Origin: Sphingobacteriales bacterium 44-15
Lineage (GTDB): Bacteria > Bacteroidota > Bacteroidia > Chitinophagales > Chitinophagaceae
Reading direction: 5' to 3'
NCBI GenBank assembly: GCA_001899685.1
Contig: MKWG01000013.1
Span: 75,638 to 139,637, forward strand
Length of the DNA stretch: 64,000 nucleotides
Under the pieces are notes generated by a model. The model was not told the DNA's origin and searched no databases. It saw only the letters and a list, made by a program, of their open reading frames with translations. The first letter of the stretch is position 1. Every line of letters starts with the position of its first letter. Positions 47,878 to 64,000 of this stretch are shown here, piece by piece. Made by a program: the position numbers and the translations under genes.

Positions 47878-50800
47878 TCAAAAATTATATTTAATGCCAA
47901 GCGTATACACTTTCTGTGGTGGAATTGAACCGGGATAGTCAGGGTCGATCCGCGCCTTGTTAGCCATCCAGATTATACCAAGATTTGCCAGGTTGAGGTA
48001 CACACTACACTGGTGGCGCAATTGTTTTTGGGAGGGCTGAAAGTGATAATCCAGGTTGATGTACCTGAGCCTGATATGACTTGCACTCATAATATTTATT
48101 TCCGCGTTTGAGTAGAAGGCATCCCGCTCGGGTAATTCGGGGTAGTCATAGATAAACGAAGGCACATTGGTCTTAACCTCATCTCCCGGCGATTGCCATC
48201 TCCTGGCAAATTCTGCATCACCTGTACCGTAGTTGATGAGTTGGTAATAATTGAGAGTGGGTTTTCTGAAAAAGTAGCCAAGTTTATAGGAAATATTAAA
48301 AGAAAGCTGGAAGTTTTTAAACCCCATAGTATTGATCAGCGAACCAAAAAAAACAGGCGTTGCAGGTCCAATATATTTTATATTTCCTTCCACACCTTTT
48401 GACGATGCTTCATCTATAATGGCATAATAATCTGTGCTCTTTTGTCCATCAACATAGCCCTGTGGATTACCATCACCATCCAGCCCTCCCCAGTGGTAAG
48501 CAGCAATCGCATATAACGGTTTTCCTACTACGGGGGTGATACCACTGCCACCGCCGAAAAATGAGCTTACCATTTGCGCACCATCGCCATAGTATTTGGT
48601 GGTTTTATTGGTATTGTAATTAAAAATAAAATCAGTGTACCACCTGAAGGACCTGTCGATATTTTTAGTTCTTAATTGCAGGTCAATACCCCGCCCTTTC
48701 ATAGCAGCAACATTTTTCACGATCATCGGGTTGCCCATTCCTCCCCATGTTGTATAATCGTATGGCGTAGGACCGTACAAGTCCGTTCCATTTTTGAAAT
48801 AAAGATCAAGCGAGCCGCTCACAATATTGTTTTTAAAGTTAAAATCCGTACCTATGTTCATCTGAGATACCTGTTCCCAACGTAAAGACGGGTTGTTGAT
48901 GGCTGTAATAACTCCATAAGGCACATTGGTAAGCGGGTTGTTGTCGATTTGTGCCACGGGCAATGCTGTTTTACGCGGATCAAGGTTGCCGCTTTTGCCT
49001 ATTGTCATTCTTAGCCTCAACATTGGGAGCAGTTCGCTATTGTAAAAGCCCTCTTTGGAAATATGCCAGGAAATGCCTGTTGTCCACAATGGTTTCCATT
49101 TGTTATTAGTAGTTGCACCAAAAATATTGGCGCCATCCTGCCGGAAGCTCCCGGTAAGTGTATATTTCCCTTTATAGGTATACGCCAGATTACCATAAAA
49201 CGAGAGATACCGTTGTGTACGCTTAAAAAAGGATGGTGCACCATAAATATTGGAATAGCCACCTGTGACATAAGTGGGATAAAAGTTGCGGAAGTCTACA
49301 CTGGATGAAGTCAGCGGATTGTCCCTGTATCCGTATGTTGTAAACGAATAGCCTTCCATATATATGTCTCTTGCTTCCGTTCCCACTATAGCGCTGATAT
49401 TGTGCCGGCCGTATTCCCTGTTAATATTGAATTGTCCTCTTATGTTTTGCGAGCCGGTTACAGATGTATTGTTGTATATAATGCTCCCGGGAGGAATAAT
49501 GTAATTGATAGCATCATTATCCCGATCAATCTGGGTAAATAAATTAATGAGGTTGCGTGCATTAAAACTTTCCGGAGCCGATTCCCTGCGGGAATCCGTA
49601 TTTTGTTTTTGATATTGATATTTCAGGTCAAAATCAATGCCTTTTGCAAGTGTAGCCGTAACGCCAATATTACCGATAAGCTCTTCTGTGTTTATTTTAG
49701 TAGCATCATACAAATAATCGTTCATAGGATAGTATTTCCAGTCATACAATTTACCGGCGCCTGCAGTATCTGTATAGAAATTACTGTATTGGACCGGTAC
49801 CGACGCATATTCTCCACTTTGATTTACCAGTTCCAGGTATGGCACGTCCCTGCCTGATACTATAATAGAATTGTAGGCAGGCTTGCCTGATACAGATCTG
49901 CTGTTCGTATAATAAAAGCCTGCATCTATTTTAATATTCTTTACCGGCTGGTAGGTTGTGCTGCTTTTCAGGTTCAGCTTGTTGAATGTAGCGCTCAAAT
50001 TATCCATAGTATTATCCAGGCTTGCTGAAACATACCAGGCCATGTTGTTGGTACCCCCTCTCAGATTCAGGGCGTATTGCCTGGTAATACCTTTTTTATA
50101 CATGTACTTTCTGTACTGATCCCTGGTGTCTATCCCTTTCAGGTAATCAATTTGTTGTCTTGCTTCTTCTTCTGACAACAAACCATTATCTTTTTTTACC
50201 ATTACTTCAACAAGCGGTGTAAGTGCAGGATGCTGAAAGTCATTAATGGCATTATCATAATATCCTTTCGTATACAGGAATTGTTCAACATCTATATAAT
50301 CTGCTGAAGAAATTTTAGGAAACGCCTTCAGGTCAGGTTTTTCTGTAACCAATACATCTGCGTTGAACTCTACCTGCATTGGTTGATTATTTTTCCCTTT
50401 TTTAGAAGTGAGCACAATTACACCGTTGCCTCCTTTTACTCCATAGATGGCAGTAGCGGCGGCATCCTTCAGCACTGTTACATTTTCAATATCATTAGGA
50501 TTAATATTGTCGATAGAACCTTCATAAATAAAATTATCGAGAACAATTACGGGATCAAGAGGGCCATTAATAGTGCTAAGCCCGCGTATGGATAACCCCA
50601 GTTTGCGGTTGTTGTCTGTTTTATTGGTGACAAAATCCACGCCGGCGATCACACCATCCAGCCTTTTCAGGATATTGGTCCCTGTTTGCTGATTAAGTGT
50701 TGCATTATTTATTATACCGAATGCACCGGTAAGGCTTACCTGCTTCTGACTGTTATATCCTGTTTGTATAATTACGTCCGGCAATTGGTCGGCGCTGCGT

Positions 50801-51093
50801 TCAAGGGCTATGGACAGGTCGCTTACTGCTGCGTGCAGCGGAATTTTCTGGCTGCTATAGCCGATATGTGAGATCAATAATGTATCAGGCAACAGAATAT
50901 TACTGACAATAAATCTTCCCATATTGTCAATAATAGCAACTTTCCCCGAAGCAGTGGTAATCGTAGCCTGGGGCAATGGTATTTTGTTTTCTTTTGAGGT
51001 GATGGTGCCGGTTATTGTTACCCGGTCTGCCTGGGCATAGCTTCGACAGGTAAGCAGAAGACTAAAAACTAATACAGTTGTTTTGATATTCAT
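47878..51093 (-). CDS. SusC/RagA family TonB-linked outer membrane protein
   Basis: NPNDIENVTVLKDAAATAIYGVKGGNGVIVLTSKKGK. Confidence 0.96.
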   Translation of the reverse strand: MNIKTTVLVFSLLLTCRSYAQADRVTITGTITSKENKIPLPQATITTASGKVAIIDNMGRFIVSNILLPDTLLISHIGYSSQKIPLHAAVSDLSIALERSADQLPDVIIQTGYNSQKQVSLTGAFGIINNATLNQQTGTNILKRLDGVIAGVDFVTNKTDNNRKLGLSIRGLSTINGPLDPVIVLDNFIYEGSIDNINPNDIENVTVLKDAAATAIYGVKGGNGVIVLTSKKGKNNQPMQVEFNADVLVTEKPDLKAFPKISSADYIDVEQFLYTKGYYDNAINDFQHPALTPLVEVMVKKDNGLLSEEEARQQIDYLKGIDTRDQYRKYMYKKGITRQYALNLRGGTNNMAWYVSASLDNTMDNLSATFNKLNLKSSTTYQPVKNIKIDAGFYYTNSRSVSGKPAYNSIIVSGRDVPYLELVNQSGEYASVPVQYSNFYTDTAGAGKLYDWKYYPMNDYLYDATKINTEELIGNIGVTATLAKGIDFDLKYQYQKQNTDSRRESAPESFNARNLINLFTQIDRDNDAINYIIPPGSIIYNNTSVTGSQNIRGQFNINREYGRHNISAIVGTEARDIYMEGYSFTTYGYRDNPLTSSSVDFRNFYPTYVTGGYSNIYGAPSFFKRTQRYLSFYGNLAYTYKGKYTLTGSFRQDGANIFGATTNNKWKPLWTTGISWHISKEGFYNSELLPMLRLRMTIGKSGNLDPRKTALPVAQIDNNPLTNVPYGVITAINNPSLRWEQVSQMNIGTDFNFKNNIVSGSLDLYFKNGTDLYGPTPYDYTTWGGMGNPMIVKNVAAMKGRGIDLQLRTKNIDRSFRWYTDFIFNYNTNKTTKYYGDGAQMVSSFFGGGSGITPVVGKPLYAIAAYHWGGLDGDGNPQGYVDGQKSTDYYAIIDEASSKGVEGNIKYIGPATPVFFGSLINTMGFKNFQLSFNISYKLGYFFRKPTLNYYQLINYGTGDAEFARRWQSPGDEVKTNVPSFIYDYPELPERDAFYSNAEINIMSASHIRLRYINLDYHFQPSQKQLRHQCSVYLNLANLGIIWMANKARIDPDYPGSIPPQKVYTLGIKYNF

Positions 51094-51095
51094 TT

Positions 51096-52343
51096 TTACG
51101 GTTTGTAGTTATGAACAATATTTTCTCCCCTGCTGAAAACGAAAACATCCAGTGTTTCCCTGCGCTCAACAACCTGTAATCCTTTCCCAAAAAGAAAGCG
51201 TTCAATTTCCTGCAGACTCATATCGTAAAAATCTGCAGGTAGCCTGATGAAGATCCCTTCAAGCGTTTTGTCCATGGTGAAAGGCAATTCCGAAAGATCG
51301 TTGAGCCGGCGAAGGACGACATTGAAAGATGTTCCATCAGGCGGGGACTGATATTCTTTGTTTCCTGCAGCCATGATGTGCTTTACCGGTATAAGACGGC
51401 TTTGCTGCTGTACGGTAATACCGAAATAATCTTCCAGGTCAATGCGCATCCGCCGTTTTGCGGATGGCAGGCCATTTACACCCATTACCTCGTAGCAATA
51501 CGCTTTATTGTACTTATCTGTTTCTGCATCAGTTATAGTGAAAAGATCCTGGACATTACTATCAAATACCAGACGGTTCACCGGAACCTCTGCAAGATCA
51601 AAAGCTTCTGTGAAAAGCGTTAATGCAGGATAATTTATGATGCAATAGCGGAGCTTTCCGGGTGCATAGTCCTGCAGTACCATCCAATATCCGGCTCCTT
51701 CTATGTAAGGAGTGATAGTTGATCTTCTGCCAATCAAGCTATCAGGGTTCAGCGTTCCGGCTGTAAACAGCGGCTTCCAGGGATTAAAATCCAGGTTGTC
51801 ATTTTTGAGATGAAAGGATATATCGCCCTTTAAGGCTTTGCGGATGTTGGCTGCCGTTACTTCATCTTTTGAGGTGGTAGCGATGATCCTGCCTTCCTGG
51901 TTTATCCATACATAATGCGGTACAAAGCGAAATGGAAAATATTTCTGGAAAACAGCCTGCTGAATAGCTACCGGAACGTTTTGGGGCATGCTGATACGGG
52001 GATGCAATTTTTCAAAAGCTTTTTTTACCCGGACAGTATCATCTCTTACAAAAGGATTGATCAATAACGTTTGCAAGCTGCCGGCAAACTCTTTTTGCAA
52101 AGTCTCTATTTTGGGAAATACTTCCAGGCATGCACTGCACCATGTAGCCCAGAAGTCCAGTATCACCAGCTTGCCTTTCAGATCGGATAACCGGATCTCA
52201 GAAACGGGGGAGTTAAGCACATTGGTAAGCACCAGGCCGGCGGGAAGGGTATCCCCGATGCTGAGAGGCTTTATATTATTATTGGTTTGGGCATGGGCTA
52301 TGGAAAGGCATAGCAAAGCCAATAAGCAAAAGATCCATTTCAT
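51096..52343 (-). CDS. TlpA family thioredoxin-fold protein
   Basis: LVILDFWATWCSACLEVFPKIETLQKEFAG. Confidence 0.88.
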   Translation of the reverse strand: MKWIFCLLALLCLSIAHAQTNNNIKPLSIGDTLPAGLVLTNVLNSPVSEIRLSDLKGKLVILDFWATWCSACLEVFPKIETLQKEFAGSLQTLLINPFVRDDTVRVKKAFEKLHPRISMPQNVPVAIQQAVFQKYFPFRFVPHYVWINQEGRIIATTSKDEVTAANIRKALKGDISFHLKNDNLDFNPWKPLFTAGTLNPDSLIGRRSTITPYIEGAGYWMVLQDYAPGKLRYCIINYPALTLFTEAFDLAEVPVNRLVFDSNVQDLFTITDAETDKYNKAYCYEVMGVNGLPSAKRRMRIDLEDYFGITVQQQSRLIPVKHIMAAGNKEYQSPPDGTSFNVVLRRLNDLSELPFTMDKTLEGIFIRLPADFYDMSLQEIERFLFGKGLQVVERRETLDVFVFSRGENIVHNYKP

Positions 52344-52797
52344 TTTGCAGTGGATTGAGCGTACATAAAACAGCCGCTGTTAATCCGCAGGCGGGATATA
52401 CAGCAGACCAACTATTATATGGAGAAGAGTGGCAAAGGGCAGGAGCCGGTGGAAAGTATAATAAAACATGAGAAAAACTGCATAAAAACCAAGCCACCGC
52501 TCCCTATCCCCTTGCCTGGTGATTACACCGGGTTTTTCGGCTTGCAGGCGAAGAGAATACGAGAGGAGTGGAAAAAAGGTAATAAATGAGCATACCCGTG
52601 CTGAATGCCATGGCGGGCATTAAAGACACGTGCAGTTTTGGTAACACAGTTTTCCATCCTTGTGAGTGTTGGATGAGCCAGGCTGGTTCCCTGAATTCTT
52701 AATAAGCCGGAAATGGGATATTCCACCAAATTAAGAAGCGTGGGACTCAACTTACCGCTTTGAGGCCCTCGGAGAGCCAACCACAAATAAGCAAGTA

Positions 52798-52816
52798 CCC
52801 ACGCCTAGGACGTGGG
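52798..52816. repeat. Hairpin CCCACG-CCTAGGA-CGTGGG
   Basis: Perfect 6-bp stem, 7-nt loop; resembles IS200/IS605-type end hairpins but no transposase seen. Confidence 0.45.
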
Positions 52817-53003
52817 CATTACACTTATCATCCCGTGGTTGTTTGAAATTTCCGAGGTTTCAAAGCGAGACTCAAAGCGAATGCTTCAGTAATATTTTAT
52901 GAAGACTTCGCAAAAACAATTTTCATTAAGCAATGATAATAAAAATAATTCATATTACGGTATACCGTAATGAAAAAATATTTTTTTTCTTGTTGCTTAC
53001 AAC

Positions 53004-53357
53004 ATGGGAAAAAATGACGGGAATGATTTTGCCAAATTTAAAGTAGCATACGCGCTGAATAAACTTCTGCAAAAAAATAAGAAGATTTATGAGCGTAACA
53101 GGAAGCAGGGAATTGAAGACCTGCTTTTAGATCACAGCTTTGACAGGATAGCTTCGAGGACCGGACTGCGAATAGCAACCATTTCTGAAGTTTTTAATGG
53201 AAAAGCGGACCCGAAATTTTCTACGATCAGTTTAATACTCCAATCTCTCAGGGTTAATTATTCCGGATTTGGCAGGCTATTGGATAATGTGACTGATGCC
53301 GAAGCCAAAGCATATATGGATGCTAAATTACCTTCAAAGAAAATAAGGACCAGGTAA
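53004..53357 (+). CDS. HTH (XRE-like) DNA-binding protein
   Basis: FDRIASRTGLRIATISEVFNGKADPKFSTISLILQSL. Confidence 0.75.
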   Translation: MGKNDGNDFAKFKVAYALNKLLQKNKKIYERNRKQGIEDLLLDHSFDRIASRTGLRIATISEVFNGKADPKFSTISLILQSLRVNYSGFGRLLDNVTDAEAKAYMDAKLPSKKIRTR

Positions 53358-56322: not shown

Positions 56323-56453
56323 GGAATGTATCGTTCGTTTATATTGAGTGAAGTTCGTATTTATGCTATAATGTGATGCGGATAAATTAAAGATTGAAGG
56401 ATTAAAAAAGCACCTTTAAGATAAGGTGTTTTTTGATAAGCTAAATATTTTTT

Positions 56454-56483
56454 CTACTGGTATGTGAAGACACATACCGATAG
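56454..56483. repeat. CTACTGG element, 30-bp internally deleted copy
   Basis: CTACTGGTATGTGAAGACACATACCGATAG; equals copy 1 minus 42 nt between its two GGTATGTG boxes. Confidence 0.75.
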
Positions 56484-56646
56484 GAAAGATTATAACAATC
56501 TATTTCCCTGCCAACATTTCTGCCTTCGTTTTGAACTGTTCGGGTTTCCCGGGCAGTTGATCCTCTTTCTAATGCTTTATTTTCGAATAAGCGAAGTCAT
56601 ACAGCATTTATTTGAAGGATAATTTCCTGTATTCGATATAGCAGGG

Positions 56647-57663
56647 TTATTCATTAAGCGTTTCTTCTATCGCTGCCCGTAGTTCCTCTTTGTTGGGCAG
56701 GTACAGTTGATATTTGCTTACAAATAATTGCGAAGAAACATTGTGCATAGCATATTGTATCAGCAGGTCATCTTTCTCTCTTGCCAGCACAATACCGATA
56801 GGCGGGTTATCTCCCTCCGTTTTTTCTTCGTTCTCAAAATACCCGAGATACATATTCATTTGTCCCACATCTTCGTATCCGGCTTCACTTTTCTTGAGGT
56901 CTATTAAAATAAAGCACTTGAGGATCCTGTGGTAAAAAACCAGGTCAACATAATGATGCCTGTTGCCCAGCGTAACCCGGTATTGTCTGCCAATAAAAGC
57001 AAAACCCTTGCCCAGCTCAAGCAAAAAATGCTGAAGATGCTCAATGATCCGGCCCTCCAGCTCGGTTTCGCTATAATGGTACAGCTCCGGTATTTTCAGG
57101 AAATCCAGTATATAAGGGTCGCGGATAACATCTTCGGGCCTGGAAACAGACTGCCCCTGCTTTGCCAGGTGTAAAATGCCTTCTTTATCTTTAGAAGCAG
57201 CCAGGCGGAGGAATAGAGATGCTTTTTTCTGTCGTTTTAGTTCCGGGATAGACCATTTTTCAAGAATGGACTGCTTTTCATAAAAGCTACGTTCAAGCTT
57301 ATCTTCAATTTTTAATAATTCCACGTAATGCGACCAGCTCAATAAGTGAGAAGCCTTCTCACTTATTGGATACTCCAGGTAAAAAAGCCTCATATAGATG
57401 AGGTTGCTCCTGCTAAATCCTTTACCGTGAAGCCGGCTTAGGTCTGTAGCAAGATTATTAATCAAAGACTTACCATATACTGCACGTTCCAGACCACCCT
57501 GTTCAAATTCAACAATATAGCGGCCTATCTCCCAGTAAGTAGTTACCAACTGTATGTTTACGGTCTGGATGGCTTGTTGCCTTCCCTGGTTGTAAGTGGC
57601 AGAGATCTGGCTGACAAGCTCGTTATAATCCTTTTGGTTGGTCAGGTTGTTCATAAGCAGCAA
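56647..57663 (-). CDS. YhcG/DUF1016 family PD-(D/E)XK nuclease domain protein
   Basis: N-terminal TTYWEIGRYIVEFEQGG...; C-terminal HHYVDLVFYHRILKCFILIDLK nuclease core. Confidence 0.92.
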   Translation of the reverse strand: MLLMNNLTNQKDYNELVSQISATYNQGRQQAIQTVNIQLVTTYWEIGRYIVEFEQGGLERAVYGKSLINNLATDLSRLHGKGFSRSNLIYMRLFYLEYPISEKASHLLSWSHYVELLKIEDKLERSFYEKQSILEKWSIPELKRQKKASLFLRLAASKDKEGILHLAKQGQSVSRPEDVIRDPYILDFLKIPELYHYSETELEGRIIEHLQHFLLELGKGFAFIGRQYRVTLGNRHHYVDLVFYHRILKCFILIDLKKSEAGYEDVGQMNMYLGYFENEEKTEGDNPPIGIVLAREKDDLLIQYAMHNVSSQLFVSKYQLYLPNKEELRAAIEETLNE

Positions 57664-57798
57664 AATTTTTTATAAGCGAAATGTTGATCAAACGTACATG
57701 AAATTTTTCATTCATAAAACCTGTCCGTTCCGGCAGGCGGGGATACAAAGGATGAATGAATCCCGAATGATTTCGGGATATGGGAGTTCCTCTTTTTT

Positions 57799-57872
57799 CT
57801 ACTGGTATGTGTCTTCACATACCAGCATAAATATCAAAGTTTATTTGACGTATCAAAACGTAATGCCAGTAG
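57799..57872. repeat. CTACTGG MITE-like element, copy A (74 bp)
   Basis: TIR CTACTGG / CCAGTAG; 2 differences from copy B. Confidence 0.88.
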
Positions 57873-57933
57873 TGAATAAGGCAGGAGTATGAAGAACACA
57901 CCAGTAGGGATAGTGTAAGGGAATAGTCATTCT

Positions 57934-58767: not shown

Positions 58768-58950
58768 CCGGCTTCCCTGTTTCAGGCGCTCATCGTTCAG
58801 CGCAAAGCCTTTTACCAGGTATTCTCTTAAAACAGATGTCGCCCATTTTCTGAATTGTGTGGCTTGGAGGGAATTAACGCGGTAGCCTACAGATATGATC
58901 GCGTCCAGATTATAATATTCAATTTCCCGGTTTACTTTCCTCCCACCTTT
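58768..58950 (-). pseudogene. RhuM-family protein internal fragment
   Basis: NREIEYYNLDAIISVGYRVNSLQATQFRKWATSVLREYLVKGFALNDERLKQGS; lacks both ends; 5' side abuts repeat copy B. Confidence 0.75.
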
Positions 58951-58954
58951 TTTT

Positions 58955-59029
58955 CTACTGGTATGTGTCTTCACATACCAGCATAAAATATCAAAGTTTA
59001 TTTGACGTATCAAAGCGTAATGCCAGTAG
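58955..59029. repeat. CTACTGG MITE-like element, copy B (75 bp)
   Basis: TIR CTACTGG / CCAGTAG; near-identical to copy A. Confidence 0.88.
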
Positions 59030-59030
59030 T

Positions 59031-59138
59031 GATTTGCAGGTTTTGGTTGAAAATGGCATAATTGAAAAAACCGGCACTACCGGAAAAGGAACATCCTATT
59101 TCTTAAGCGGCAATATAGGGGCGAAAGGGGCAATATAA
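59031..59138 (+). pseudogene. C-terminal fragment, AlbA/Schlafen AAA_4-type ATP-binding protein
   Basis: DLQVLVENGIIEKTGTTGKGTSYFLSGNIGAKGAI*; starts 1 nt after repeat copy B. Confidence 0.55.
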
Positions 59139-59633: not shown

Positions 59634-59785
59634 TTCACCCACATGCGTTACCTCCCTTACATCCACCAGGTGCGCAGCTTTATCAAATAGATTGCATTAC
59701 ACAGCATTTTGTAAATTAAGTGAGTTATGAATCACCAGGAAAAACACCGGGAGCTGTATATCCGCATTGGTGAAATATATTTTTG
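59634..59785. repeat. Duplicated segment carrying 3' end of the 62873-type gene, copy 1
   Basis: ttcacccacatgcgttacctcccttacatccaccaggtgcgc...ggtgaaatatattttt; has 10-nt deletion relative to copy 2. Confidence 0.88.
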
Positions 59786-59795
59786 GGCGGTAGTT

Positions 59796-60095
59796 TTATT
59801 CGTCAATTCTGTTTTTTAAGTCCATTCGTTCGTGTAGAATTCTGATGATTTCAATTTCATCTTCCGCAATTTGTTGATAGAATATTATGTGTTTCCCGGT
59901 TCTTAGCCCGAGTAAGTTACTGTTTATTCCATCGTATTGTTTTCCAAGTTCTGGGTTTTCTCCAATTTGCATGCAGGCAAACTTCAATGTCAAATAATAT
60001 CTGTCAGCCTGCTTTTCAGACCATTTTTCAAAAGTATAATCCCAAATATCATTTAAGTCGTCAATGGCTTCCTGTCTTAAAATAACTTTAGCCAT
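59796..60095 (-). CDS. ParE/RelE family toxin
   Basis: MAKVILRQEAIDDLNDIWDYTFEKWSEKQADRYY...HIIFYQ...EIIRILHERMDL. Confidence 0.92.
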   Translation of the reverse strand: MAKVILRQEAIDDLNDIWDYTFEKWSEKQADRYYLTLKFACMQIGENPELGKQYDGINSNLLGLRTGKHIIFYQQIAEDEIEIIRILHERMDLKNRIDE

Positions 60096-60336
60096 TTTTA
60101 CTTTTTTCAGATTTTAATCTTTTCAAATTTTCGTCAAAGTCAAAATTTTCAACTCGTGGGCTGTTCAAGCCTTTCTGAATTGCAGCTCTCAATGCAGTAA
60201 TTTTGCTTTCTTCATCTTCTAAAAGCCGAAGCCCGGCACGAATAACTTCACTCACGTTCTTATACCGTCCTGCTGATACCTGGCTACTTACAAACTGGTC
60301 AAAATAGTTTCCGAGTGATATTGATGTATTTTTCAT
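60088..60336 (-). CDS. ParD family antitoxin
   Basis: SISLGNYFDQFVSSQVSAGRYKNVSEVIRAGLRLLEDEESK; overlaps parE-like gene. Confidence 0.92.
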   Translation of the reverse strand: MKNTSISLGNYFDQFVSSQVSAGRYKNVSEVIRAGLRLLEDEESKITALRAAIQKGLNSPRVENFDFDENLKRLKSEKSKNG

Positions 60337-60540
60337 TTTATCAAACTTTCCCCAAAGTTACCAAAAATTGGTAACTGTGCAAGTGTTTTAGTCACACCTT
60401 TTAGGTTTTTCTTTTTCAGTTCACCAAATTTGAAATTTGTTTCCATAAAAAACTTCATCAATTCTCCCCATTTTTAAGTCTCGTGAGACACGAGCCCTGG
60501 CGACAGATCCTACCTCGCCGTGTTACTATCTCCCGTCTCC

Positions 60541-60563
60541 CCGGCACGTGTCTCACGTGCCGG
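60541..60563. repeat. Perfect 10-bp palindrome CCGGCACGTG-TCT-CACGTGCCGG
   Basis: Direct reading; degenerate copy at 62769-62791. Confidence 0.9.
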
Positions 60564-60672
60564 AAAGAAGAAAAGGTGAAGACATACACCAGTACGGAAA
60601 ATAGTGTAAAGCAGAACCATCCCCCTTGCAGCAGTGCCATTATAATGATACCGGCCTGCCGTTCTTCAAGTA

Positions 60673-60833
60673 TTCACCCACATGCGTTACCTCTCTTACA
60701 TCCACCAGGTGCGCGGCTTCTACCAGCTTTATCAAATAGATTGCATTACACAGCATTTTGTAAATTAAGTGAGTTATGGATCACCAGGAAGAATACCGGG
60801 AGCTGTATATCCGCATTGGTGAAACATATTTTT
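60673..60833. repeat. Duplicated segment carrying 3' end of the 62873-type gene, copy 2
   Basis: Minus frame CNAIYLIKLVEAAHLVDVREVTHVGEYLKNGRPVSL* matches C-terminus of ORF 62873..63481. Confidence 0.88.
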
Positions 60834-60878
60834 GAACGGCGAGATGACGGTTACGGTTTCCGTATAGCGACAAATAAT

Positions 60879-61538: not shown

Positions 61539-61886
61539 TTACTCTTGCTTTGATTCCAATAATTGAGTAATGTCTGTGAGCAAATGAGGAATGTTATGCT
61601 GGATAATATCCCAAACAATATTACTGTCTATTCCAAAATAATCGTGAACTATTATGTTGCGAAAGTCCTTTATCTGCCGCCAGTTTATATGCGGGTGCTG
61701 TGCTTTATAACTATCGGGTATTCTTGCCACAGCTTCGCCGATTATCATAAAATTATGCTGTACAGCATGTACTGTTTTTATGTCTGTACTGTATTGTTCA
61801 AATGTAAGCCCTTCGGTAAAGGATATTATATTGTCTATTGATTCCTTTATATCTCCTAATAAAAAAAAGACACTTCTTTCAGACAT
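61539..61886 (-). CDS. hepT: HepT-like (DUF86) toxin
   Basis: R-x4-HxY motif in FRNIIVHDYFGID; overlaps nucleotidyltransferase gene. Confidence 0.93.
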   Translation of the reverse strand: MSERSVFFLLGDIKESIDNIISFTEGLTFEQYSTDIKTVHAVQHNFMIIGEAVARIPDSYKAQHPHINWRQIKDFRNIIVHDYFGIDSNIVWDIIQHNIPHLLTDITQLLESKQE

Positions 61887-62169
61887 GGATCAGGTGTTTT
61901 TCCACAAACGGCAGGTATTTTTCCTTAATTCCTTTACGGGATACAAGGTCAATCTTTGTATGAAAAATATCTTCCAGTTCATGTGCCAGAGAAATAAATT
62001 CAATTCCTACCCTGCCATTAAAATCAACAAGGATATCTATGTCACTGTTTTCATTAAAATCGCCCCGTGCATAAGAACCAAACAAACCTAATTCAGAAAT
62101 GGGATAGCGTGTTTGGAGTTCAGGCTTTTTGTCCTTTAATATTTTGATTATCTGGATAGTGCTGTACAT
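61879..62169 (-). CDS. mntA: MntA-like nucleotidyltransferase antitoxin
   Basis: GSYARGDFNENSDIDILVDF (GSx10DxD). Confidence 0.93.
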   Translation of the reverse strand: MYSTIQIIKILKDKKPELQTRYPISELGLFGSYARGDFNENSDIDILVDFNGRVGIEFISLAHELEDIFHTKIDLVSRKGIKEKYLPFVEKHLIHV

Positions 62170-62715: not shown

Positions 62716-62872
62716 AACATCAAAATTTACAAAAAGAAATTCGTATTTTATAAGGTCTTCCTCCTGTCCAGGCACGCGTCTCACATGCCGGAAAGATGAA
62801 CCAGGGTGGGGTAAGGACACACCAGTACGGAAAATAGTGTAAAGCAGAGCCATTCCCCTTGCAGCAGTGCCA

Positions 62873-63481
62873 TTATAATGATAACTGCCTGCCCTTCTTT
62901 ACACATTCACCCACATGCGTTACCTCCCTTACATCCACCAGGTGCGCGGCTTCTACCAGCTTTATTAAATGGATGCATACGGTTAGCGGGTCTGCTATAG
63001 AAGTGCTGTCACTGCAAAAAGCATTTTCCACTACCTGCTCCCAGCACTGCATCCAGTTGCTGAGCGACTGGTAGCTGAAAAACTGTTGAAATGCCCGGTA
63101 GGGATCGCTATATTCTTTTTCTGACAGGCAGCGCGGAAGCTCCTTCCACACATCGGCGCTAACATAATGGCTGCAATAGTATTTTTTATGGAAGAGGTCT
63201 TCTTTTTTAATGGTAACCGCGCTGTGCTTTTTATGCCTCAAAGCATAGGCGGCTTTTATAAGCGAGCGGATGAGCTTGCTGTATAAAAGTATATCGGCAG
63301 GTGAATCTCCTTTGTACACACCTGCCCCGCTGGCATGGCACACCAGTTTTTTGATGAGCCTGCGAAAGTGGTGCACGTGCGCTTCGGCAAAGAAGTGGGC
63401 AATTACCTGGTAAGGGTCTGTAATGCATTCGTACAGCCAGCATTGGGTGTTGAACGGGTCTTTGTGGTGTTTGGTTTTCAT
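62873..63481 (-). CDS. Unknown helical protein, candidate partner of the adjacent nuclease-like gene
   Basis: MKTKHHKDPFNTQCWLYECITDPYQVIAHFFAEAHVHHFRRLIKKL...; no recognised family; paralogous 3' fragments upstream. Confidence 0.65.
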   Translation of the reverse strand: MKTKHHKDPFNTQCWLYECITDPYQVIAHFFAEAHVHHFRRLIKKLVCHASGAGVYKGDSPADILLYSKLIRSLIKAAYALRHKKHSAVTIKKEDLFHKKYYCSHYVSADVWKELPRCLSEKEYSDPYRAFQQFFSYQSLSNWMQCWEQVVENAFCSDSTSIADPLTVCIHLIKLVEAAHLVDVREVTHVGECVKKGRQLSL

Positions 63482-63531
63482 CTTTTTATTTTTAGGTGAG
63501 GCTTAGATAGACCTGTAAGGTTTTGAAAACA

Positions 63532-64000
63532 TTATAGGTCTTGCTGTTGCGGTGGCAGTATGCCGGGGAAGGCGGTGATGATCTCCCCGCCGGTGCTGGT
63601 AATGACCGTAATGGTGGTTACGGTATTGCCCGAAGGATCGTGACCGAGCGGCGTGCCGGTATCCAGTACCCGCTGCAGGTGAGGGCTGTGCGGAACAGTC
63701 TCTGGCGGTTGCTGGCAGGCATCTCTTATACAGGCCACAATTTGGGGTATGGGTATGGTAAACTTGCCGGTAAGCGGGTGGCGCGGCACTTTGTAGTAAT
63801 GGCGCTCTAAAATATGCGCCAGCGCTTTGCTGCTTAGGTACGAACCTTTGCGCAGCAGCTTTTTACGGTGCTTTATGGGCAGTTGCCATATAAGCCCCTC
63901 CTGCAATTGCTGCAGCCAGCTTTGAGTATCTGCCAGCAGGAACAGGGCCTGCAGCCATTGGGTTTCGTTGAAATGGATGTTGGTGCTTTGTGCAGGTGTG
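63532..64000 (-). CDS. Unknown protein with BECR-nuclease-like C-terminus (partial, runs off window)
   Basis: Open to window edge: ...TPAQSTNIHFNETQWLQALFLLADTQSWLQQLQEGLIWQLPIKHRKKLLRKGSYLSSKALAHILERHYYKVPRHPLTGKFTIPIPQIVACIRDA...RVLDTGTPLGHDPSGNTVTTITVITSTGGEIITAFPG. Confidence 0.65.
   Translation of the reverse strand, partial: TPAQSTNIHFNETQWLQALFLLADTQSWLQQLQEGLIWQLPIKHRKKLLRKGSYLSSKALAHILERHYYKVPRHPLTGKFTIPIPQIVACIRDACQQPPETVPHSPHLQRVLDTGTPLGHDPSGNTVTTITVITSTGGEIITAFPGILPPQQQDL

Follow-up and report, generated by a model that had tools for sequence, protein, structure and literature searches.

A candidate RNase/partner operon of Chitinophagaceae behind an uncatalogued leader RNA with the anatomy of an attenuator

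Introduction

The window analysed here, a 64,000-nt stretch of DNA from Sphingobacteriales bacterium 44-15, ends in two small neighbouring open reading frames, A and B, which raise the question of whether they form a new toxin and antitoxin, as the initial annotation proposed, or belong to another kind of arrangement. Taken alone, the protein pair would be a modest finding, and the surprising part is the RNA leader that precedes it in other copies. Our best explanation as a whole, to which we assign a probability of about 0.5, is that positions 62873-64000 belong to the 3′ end of an operon of Terrimonas/Niabella-type Chitinophagaceae that is repeated and prone to recombination and in which a leader switch and a divergent XRE-type regulator would govern a candidate RNase (A) and its helical partner (B).

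Results

The gene pair and its copies

Gene A (63532-64000, minus strand) was open in frame to the window edge with 155 aa visible, and the motifs quoted in the initial annotation were exactly present. The frame has no start codon in the window: the window edge is also the end of contig C13, so the 5′ end of A is cut off. Gene B (62873-63481, minus strand) encodes 202 aa, as reported before, and the gap between the two genes is 50 nt (63482-63531) rather than 51 nt. The His-rich segment, previously placed at the C-terminus, lies in the middle of the protein at residues 66-86 of 162 (residue numbers of A follow the complete copy on contig C30).

The A-B block measures approximately 1.1 kb and is present in about three copies in this genome. 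Complete A genes were found on contigs C30 and C14 (162 and 160 aa, respectively, both starting with MNNAVATP), where the block shows 90-92% DNA identity. Contig C35 begins inside a further A-B copy, and a leader with the first 20 codons of A stands at the end of contig C24. Contig C13 probably broke at this point because A-B is repeated in the genome. A scan of the genome collection yielded 42 A loci, all in Chitinophagaceae as far as named, including Terrimonas, Niabella, Puia, Flavihumibacter, Deminuibacter, Pseudoflavitalea, and metagenome-assembled genomes; in a sample of 396 Bacteroidota genomes, A was detected only in this genome and as one weak match. It was absent from the plasmid records and from the viral contigs searched. 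Values of dN/dS ranged from 0.09 to 0.25 for A and from 0.14 to 0.29 for B, by which measure both genes are under purifying selection. Given the nearly identical genomic copies, the homologues at 42 loci, and these dN/dS values, the two reading frames are not chance; as judged by sequence comparison both are real, and A-B is a real gene pair that recurs in bacteria of soil and water. The possibility that the block is a transposon with sharp ends was considered and rejected, as copies that share a leader type remain alike across the leader and the block contains no recombinase gene.

Several other features were recorded near the pair. A cluster of toxin–antitoxin-type genes, assigned by eye, lies directly downstream of A-B and includes an MNT/HEPN-like pair as well as a toxin of the ParE/RelE type next to its antitoxin (61539-62169 and 59796-60336). 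A solo repeat of the B tail (60586-60741, minus strand), comprising the last ~34 codons of B and its 3′ flank and 92% identical to 62819-62974, adjoins these genes, and a second, shorter repeat of the B tail lies at 59634-59680 (minus strand). The B-tail repeats (59634-59790, 60540-60839, and 62768-62974) are preceded by a common, non-B sequence of ~100 nt and are interspersed with ParDE-, MNT/HEPN-, and zeta-like genes; B tails also recur 1-4 kb downstream of B at four loci in other genomes. Dispersed inverted repeats (TACTGGTATGTG...CACATACCAG) were located at 56447-56487, 57793-57875, and 58949-59032, surrounding a DUF1016/YhcG-like gene (56647-57663, family by eye).

Protein A as a candidate RNase

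Sequence searches of Pfam, NCBIfam, PADLOC, PHROGs, and PDB gave no convincing match for A, and the earlier statement that neither protein resembles a named toxin–antitoxin pair held across these databases. Among 38 A homologues, E18, H68, R72, H73, P81, F86, R118, and P153 were invariant, and K85, G146, and T150 were nearly so. In the AlphaFold2 model of A (pLDDT 79), helices at residues 18-43, 63-73, and 90-100 precede a C-terminal sheet. A Foldseek search with this model returned zero matches significant by E-value, the E-values of the colicin D-like matches being 0.075-1.7. The matches of best probability were a phage protein named "Colicin D" (probability 0.92, TM 0.55 to target, E 0.075), chain 7m5f of a Serratia CDI system (probability 0.54, not significant by E-value), and colicin D itself, 1tfo (probability 0.18, TM 0.45 to target, E 1.7).

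The His/Arg/Thr-type catalytic pattern of BECR nucleases is present in A as H68-x3-R72...T150, in the manner of the toxin CdiA-CT EC3006, whose active site is formed by H256, R260, and T330; toxins of the BECR fold share very low mutual sequence identity, and their immunity proteins can be all-helical (PMC9086364). From the conserved residues, the colicin D-type fold matches, and the published BECR active sites, the best guess is that A is a BECR/colicin D-type RNase. The assignment made in the initial annotation is thus weakly to moderately supported, the conserved H-x3-R...T and the best-probability colicin D-type folds being for it and the lack of a significant E-value against it. Like colicin D and the CdiA-CT toxins EC3006 and Kp342, A has helices before a C-terminal sheet, and an H-x3-R motif with a late Thr, and it is a small domain standing alone beside a helical protein; unlike them, it has no detectable sequence homology, a fold match below significance, no secretion or delivery domain, and a partner that is not obligatory.

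Protein B and the toxin–antitoxin reading

The model of B is confidently all-helical (pLDDT 89), and the protein is internally duplicated (hhalign probability 97, E 9e-11); a search of PDB gave no significant match and no known fold. B adjoins A at 35 of the 42 A loci, and A stands without B at the other seven, where another small gene mostly lies immediately upstream. B homologues without A are also frequent: they adjoin HEPN/nucleotidyltransferase genes in three genomes and occur at five loci in operons led by the RNA described below. Across genera, B diverges far faster than A, with 23-43% identity between Niabella and Terrimonas compared to about 60-77% for A.

These data bear on a classical type II system, in which A would be a toxic RNase, B its dedicated antitoxin or immunity protein, and the leader would merely set expression. 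The conserved, BECR-like A, the position of B directly downstream at most loci, the small operon with many copies, and the published all-helical immunity proteins would all fit such a system, and as in RelE/ParE and HEPN-MNT systems two small genes form one operon with an HTH-type regulator nearby; the HEPN/nucleotidyltransferase neighbours of B relatives are a further likeness to HEPN-MNT. However, a toxin and its cognate antitoxin would always be found together, whereas the two genes also occur apart, with B homologues in RNA-led operons of other lineages. The gene order is toxin-first, the A-B gap reaches ~500-650 nt in Niabella, and B has diverged much more than A; in addition, unlike in RelE/ParE or HEPN-MNT pairs, B lacks specificity for A, an attenuator-type RNA precedes the operon, and a DNA-binding domain was recognised in neither protein. 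We consider a type II system unlikely. Because A lacks B at seven loci and B homologues exist elsewhere without A, B does not appear to be a dedicated antitoxin; it is a helical protein that probably binds or regulates A. The strong folds in the long Niabella gap were considered as a second leader copy, which was rejected since they resemble dispersed inverted repeats.

Two mutually exclusive folds in the leader RNA

In the Terrimonas and Niabella copies of A-B, a promoter-like TATTTTTG/TATTTTCG is followed by a structured leader of ~190 nt and then by the start codon of A. The leader of the window's own A-B copy would lie beyond the contig end, and the leader is known from the other copies. 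Two folds were identified. Fold I is a long nested hairpin, with 96.0% of cells paired over 66 loci and changes on both sides in 32 of 40 pairs; its covariation was 0.512 compared to 0.190 in shuffled alignments (0 of 500 shuffles reached the score), and slid controls were at most 44% paired. In Fold II, the terminator fold, S2, the apical hairpin's 3′ strand, pairs with S3, a segment past the base of the long hairpin, with 96.7% of cells paired, changes on both sides in 18 of 26 pairs, and a covariation of 0.342 compared to 0.197 (0 of 500 shuffles). The two folds use common strands and are mutually exclusive. These pair counts rest on alignments A5 and A9, which had been fitted to the very folds under test; two further tests are independent of that fit. 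First, helix P2 was fully paired at 63 of 66 loci in more than a dozen different sequences, and swapping its halves between loci lowered full pairing to 13%. Second, a T-tract directly follows S3, six or more of the first 8 nt being T at 52 of 66 loci, compared to 6 of 66 for the eight bases 25 nt further on. The S2:S3 duplex had a predicted energy of −25.6 kcal/mol compared to −14.8 kcal/mol after shuffling.

The leader thus contains two exclusive, covarying folds 5′ of the coding region, one of them an intrinsic terminator with a T-tract, and on this comparative evidence it is built like a terminator/antiterminator switch. Since the nested fold is more stable than the terminator fold, termination would need a trigger.

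The same region was also weighed as a site at which single-stranded DNA folds and the cassette is transposed or recombined. The multiple copies, the variable flanks, and the solo B-tail repeats would suit such a site, but both folds contain many G-U pairs, which become A-C mismatches on the other strand, and the T-tract and the promoter-like TATTTG are oriented to fit transcription. The distance to the first codon is similar in many operons, the RNA occurs once per operon and before unrelated genes, and the lack of a recombinase gene in the block argues against this reading as well. We consider it very unlikely.

Distribution of the leader RNA and the operons behind it

A covariance model built from 19 leaders unexpectedly detected the RNA in 41 of 151 related genomes, for the most part at places other than upstream of A. 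The RNA is present in 57 of 299 genomes order-wide and in 48 of 396 genomes of the phylum sample, the three samples overlapping. Against Rfam 15, the leader gave no match above the gathering threshold and nothing relevant at E up to 10. Literature searches, with supplements and subscription papers outside their scope, did not find the RNA or the pair described; unpublished or supplementary motif lists may contain the RNA. The leader is a previously uncatalogued RNA.

The window contains a copy of this RNA at 52737-52870 (minus strand; 93.5 bits with R1, 111 bits with R3). It adjoins a divergent XRE-type (HTH_3) regulator gene (53004-53357, plus strand), and a TlpA/thioredoxin-like gene (51096-52343, minus strand) and a SusC-type TonB receptor gene (47878-51093, minus strand) follow downstream. 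Elsewhere the RNA precedes operons for an ECF sigma factor with FecR, for TlpA-like proteins with SusC receptors, and for a ~75-aa protein with a response regulator, as well as B or half-B genes. In the sigma-factor and small-protein operons, the first gene usually starts ~50 nt past the T-tract. A small divergent HTH gene lies upstream at most loci of the sigma, SusC, and A-B classes and more rarely in the response-regulator class.

Further RNA copies were noted in passing. The ~75-aa protein family was seen behind the RNA at ten loci, often with a lone response-regulator receiver protein. A weaker copy in the genome of the window (locus L197, 3134-3283; contig C21, 44633-44782) is accompanied by a divergent XRE-type gene and followed by a 121-aa protein that looks like half of B by eye and has no significant profile match. 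The C24 leader is a third type before the A start codon, unrelated in sequence and similar in architecture (nested hairpin, GGTAAG, T-tract), and was missed by the covariance models. The RNA architecture was also observed at four loci of Bacteroidota families that are further removed, where the proteins encoded behind it are secreted or unknown and no XRE gene is obvious by the RNA.

The A-B loci of Puia, Deminuibacter, and Flavihumibacter do not have this leader directly before A, which indicates that A-B can work without it. In Pseudoflavitalea, A lies inside an operon led by the RNA ~1.1 kb upstream, together with a response-regulator-like gene. This gene arrangement, the regulatory company that the leader keeps, and the lack of a significant fold match would suit a regulatory or adaptor protein A with no nuclease function, one that belongs to the signalling network of those sigma-factor and response-regulator operons that are also led by this RNA. 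Against such a role stand the invariant His and Arg and near-invariant Thr, typical of BECR RNases, and the colicin D-type proteins as best-probability structural neighbours, and we regard it as doubtful.

The distribution also bears on a type III-like system, in which the leader RNA itself would be the antitoxin and bind A in the way that ToxI binds ToxN. In toxIN loci, a structured RNA and a terminator-like element lie upstream of a small RNase gene. The A-B operon shares this layout: its structured RNA stands immediately before the gene of a small candidate RNase, with a terminator-like helix and T-tract between them. Unlike the tandem-repeat RNA antitoxin specific to its toxin gene, however, the leader is single, has no repeat array, and is common to many unrelated operons that lack A. 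It is also variable, very different leader types standing before nearly identical A proteins, and A loci without the RNA exist. Because the RNA is common to unrelated operons, a type III antitoxin is very unlikely.

Discussion

We favour an operon controlled by attenuation over these alternatives. Transcription would start upstream of the leader, and the nested hairpin would form as an antiterminator and permit readthrough. A signal, which may be a metabolite, a protein, or a translation event, would free S2, so that the S2:S3 terminator forms with its T-tract; attenuation would then decide whether A-B is made. Expression would yield A, the presumed RNase, and B, its presumed modulator, and the small divergent XRE-type regulator may act with the leader in governing the operon. 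The leader is common to sigma-factor, TonB-receptor, response-regulator, and other B-type operons, which suggests that A-B was recruited into a general Bacteroidota regulatory layer.

The leader resembles attenuation leaders and riboswitches in its exclusive antiterminator and terminator, its T-tract, its 5′ position, and its conserved unpaired bases, and it differs from them in having no Rfam match and in its regular linkage to a divergent XRE gene. Structured RNA motifs such as Flavo-1 (RF01705) and Pedo-repair (RF01715) have been described in Bacteroidetes (PMC2864571); Rfam scans of the leader RNAs matched neither. It is rather probable that the leader represents a new, Bacteroidota-wide class of bistable attenuator, possibly a riboswitch, which together with the divergent XRE regulator would control a scattered regulon comprising sigma factors, TonB receptors, and response regulators as well as the RNase/partner cassette. 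If so, a new class of regulatory RNA would be present in a major phylum, from Chitinophagaceae to other Bacteroidota orders, before regulatory and nutrient-uptake operons, and its association with a divergent XRE gene, as well as with an RNase-like pair in one lineage, would make its signal and its role directly testable.
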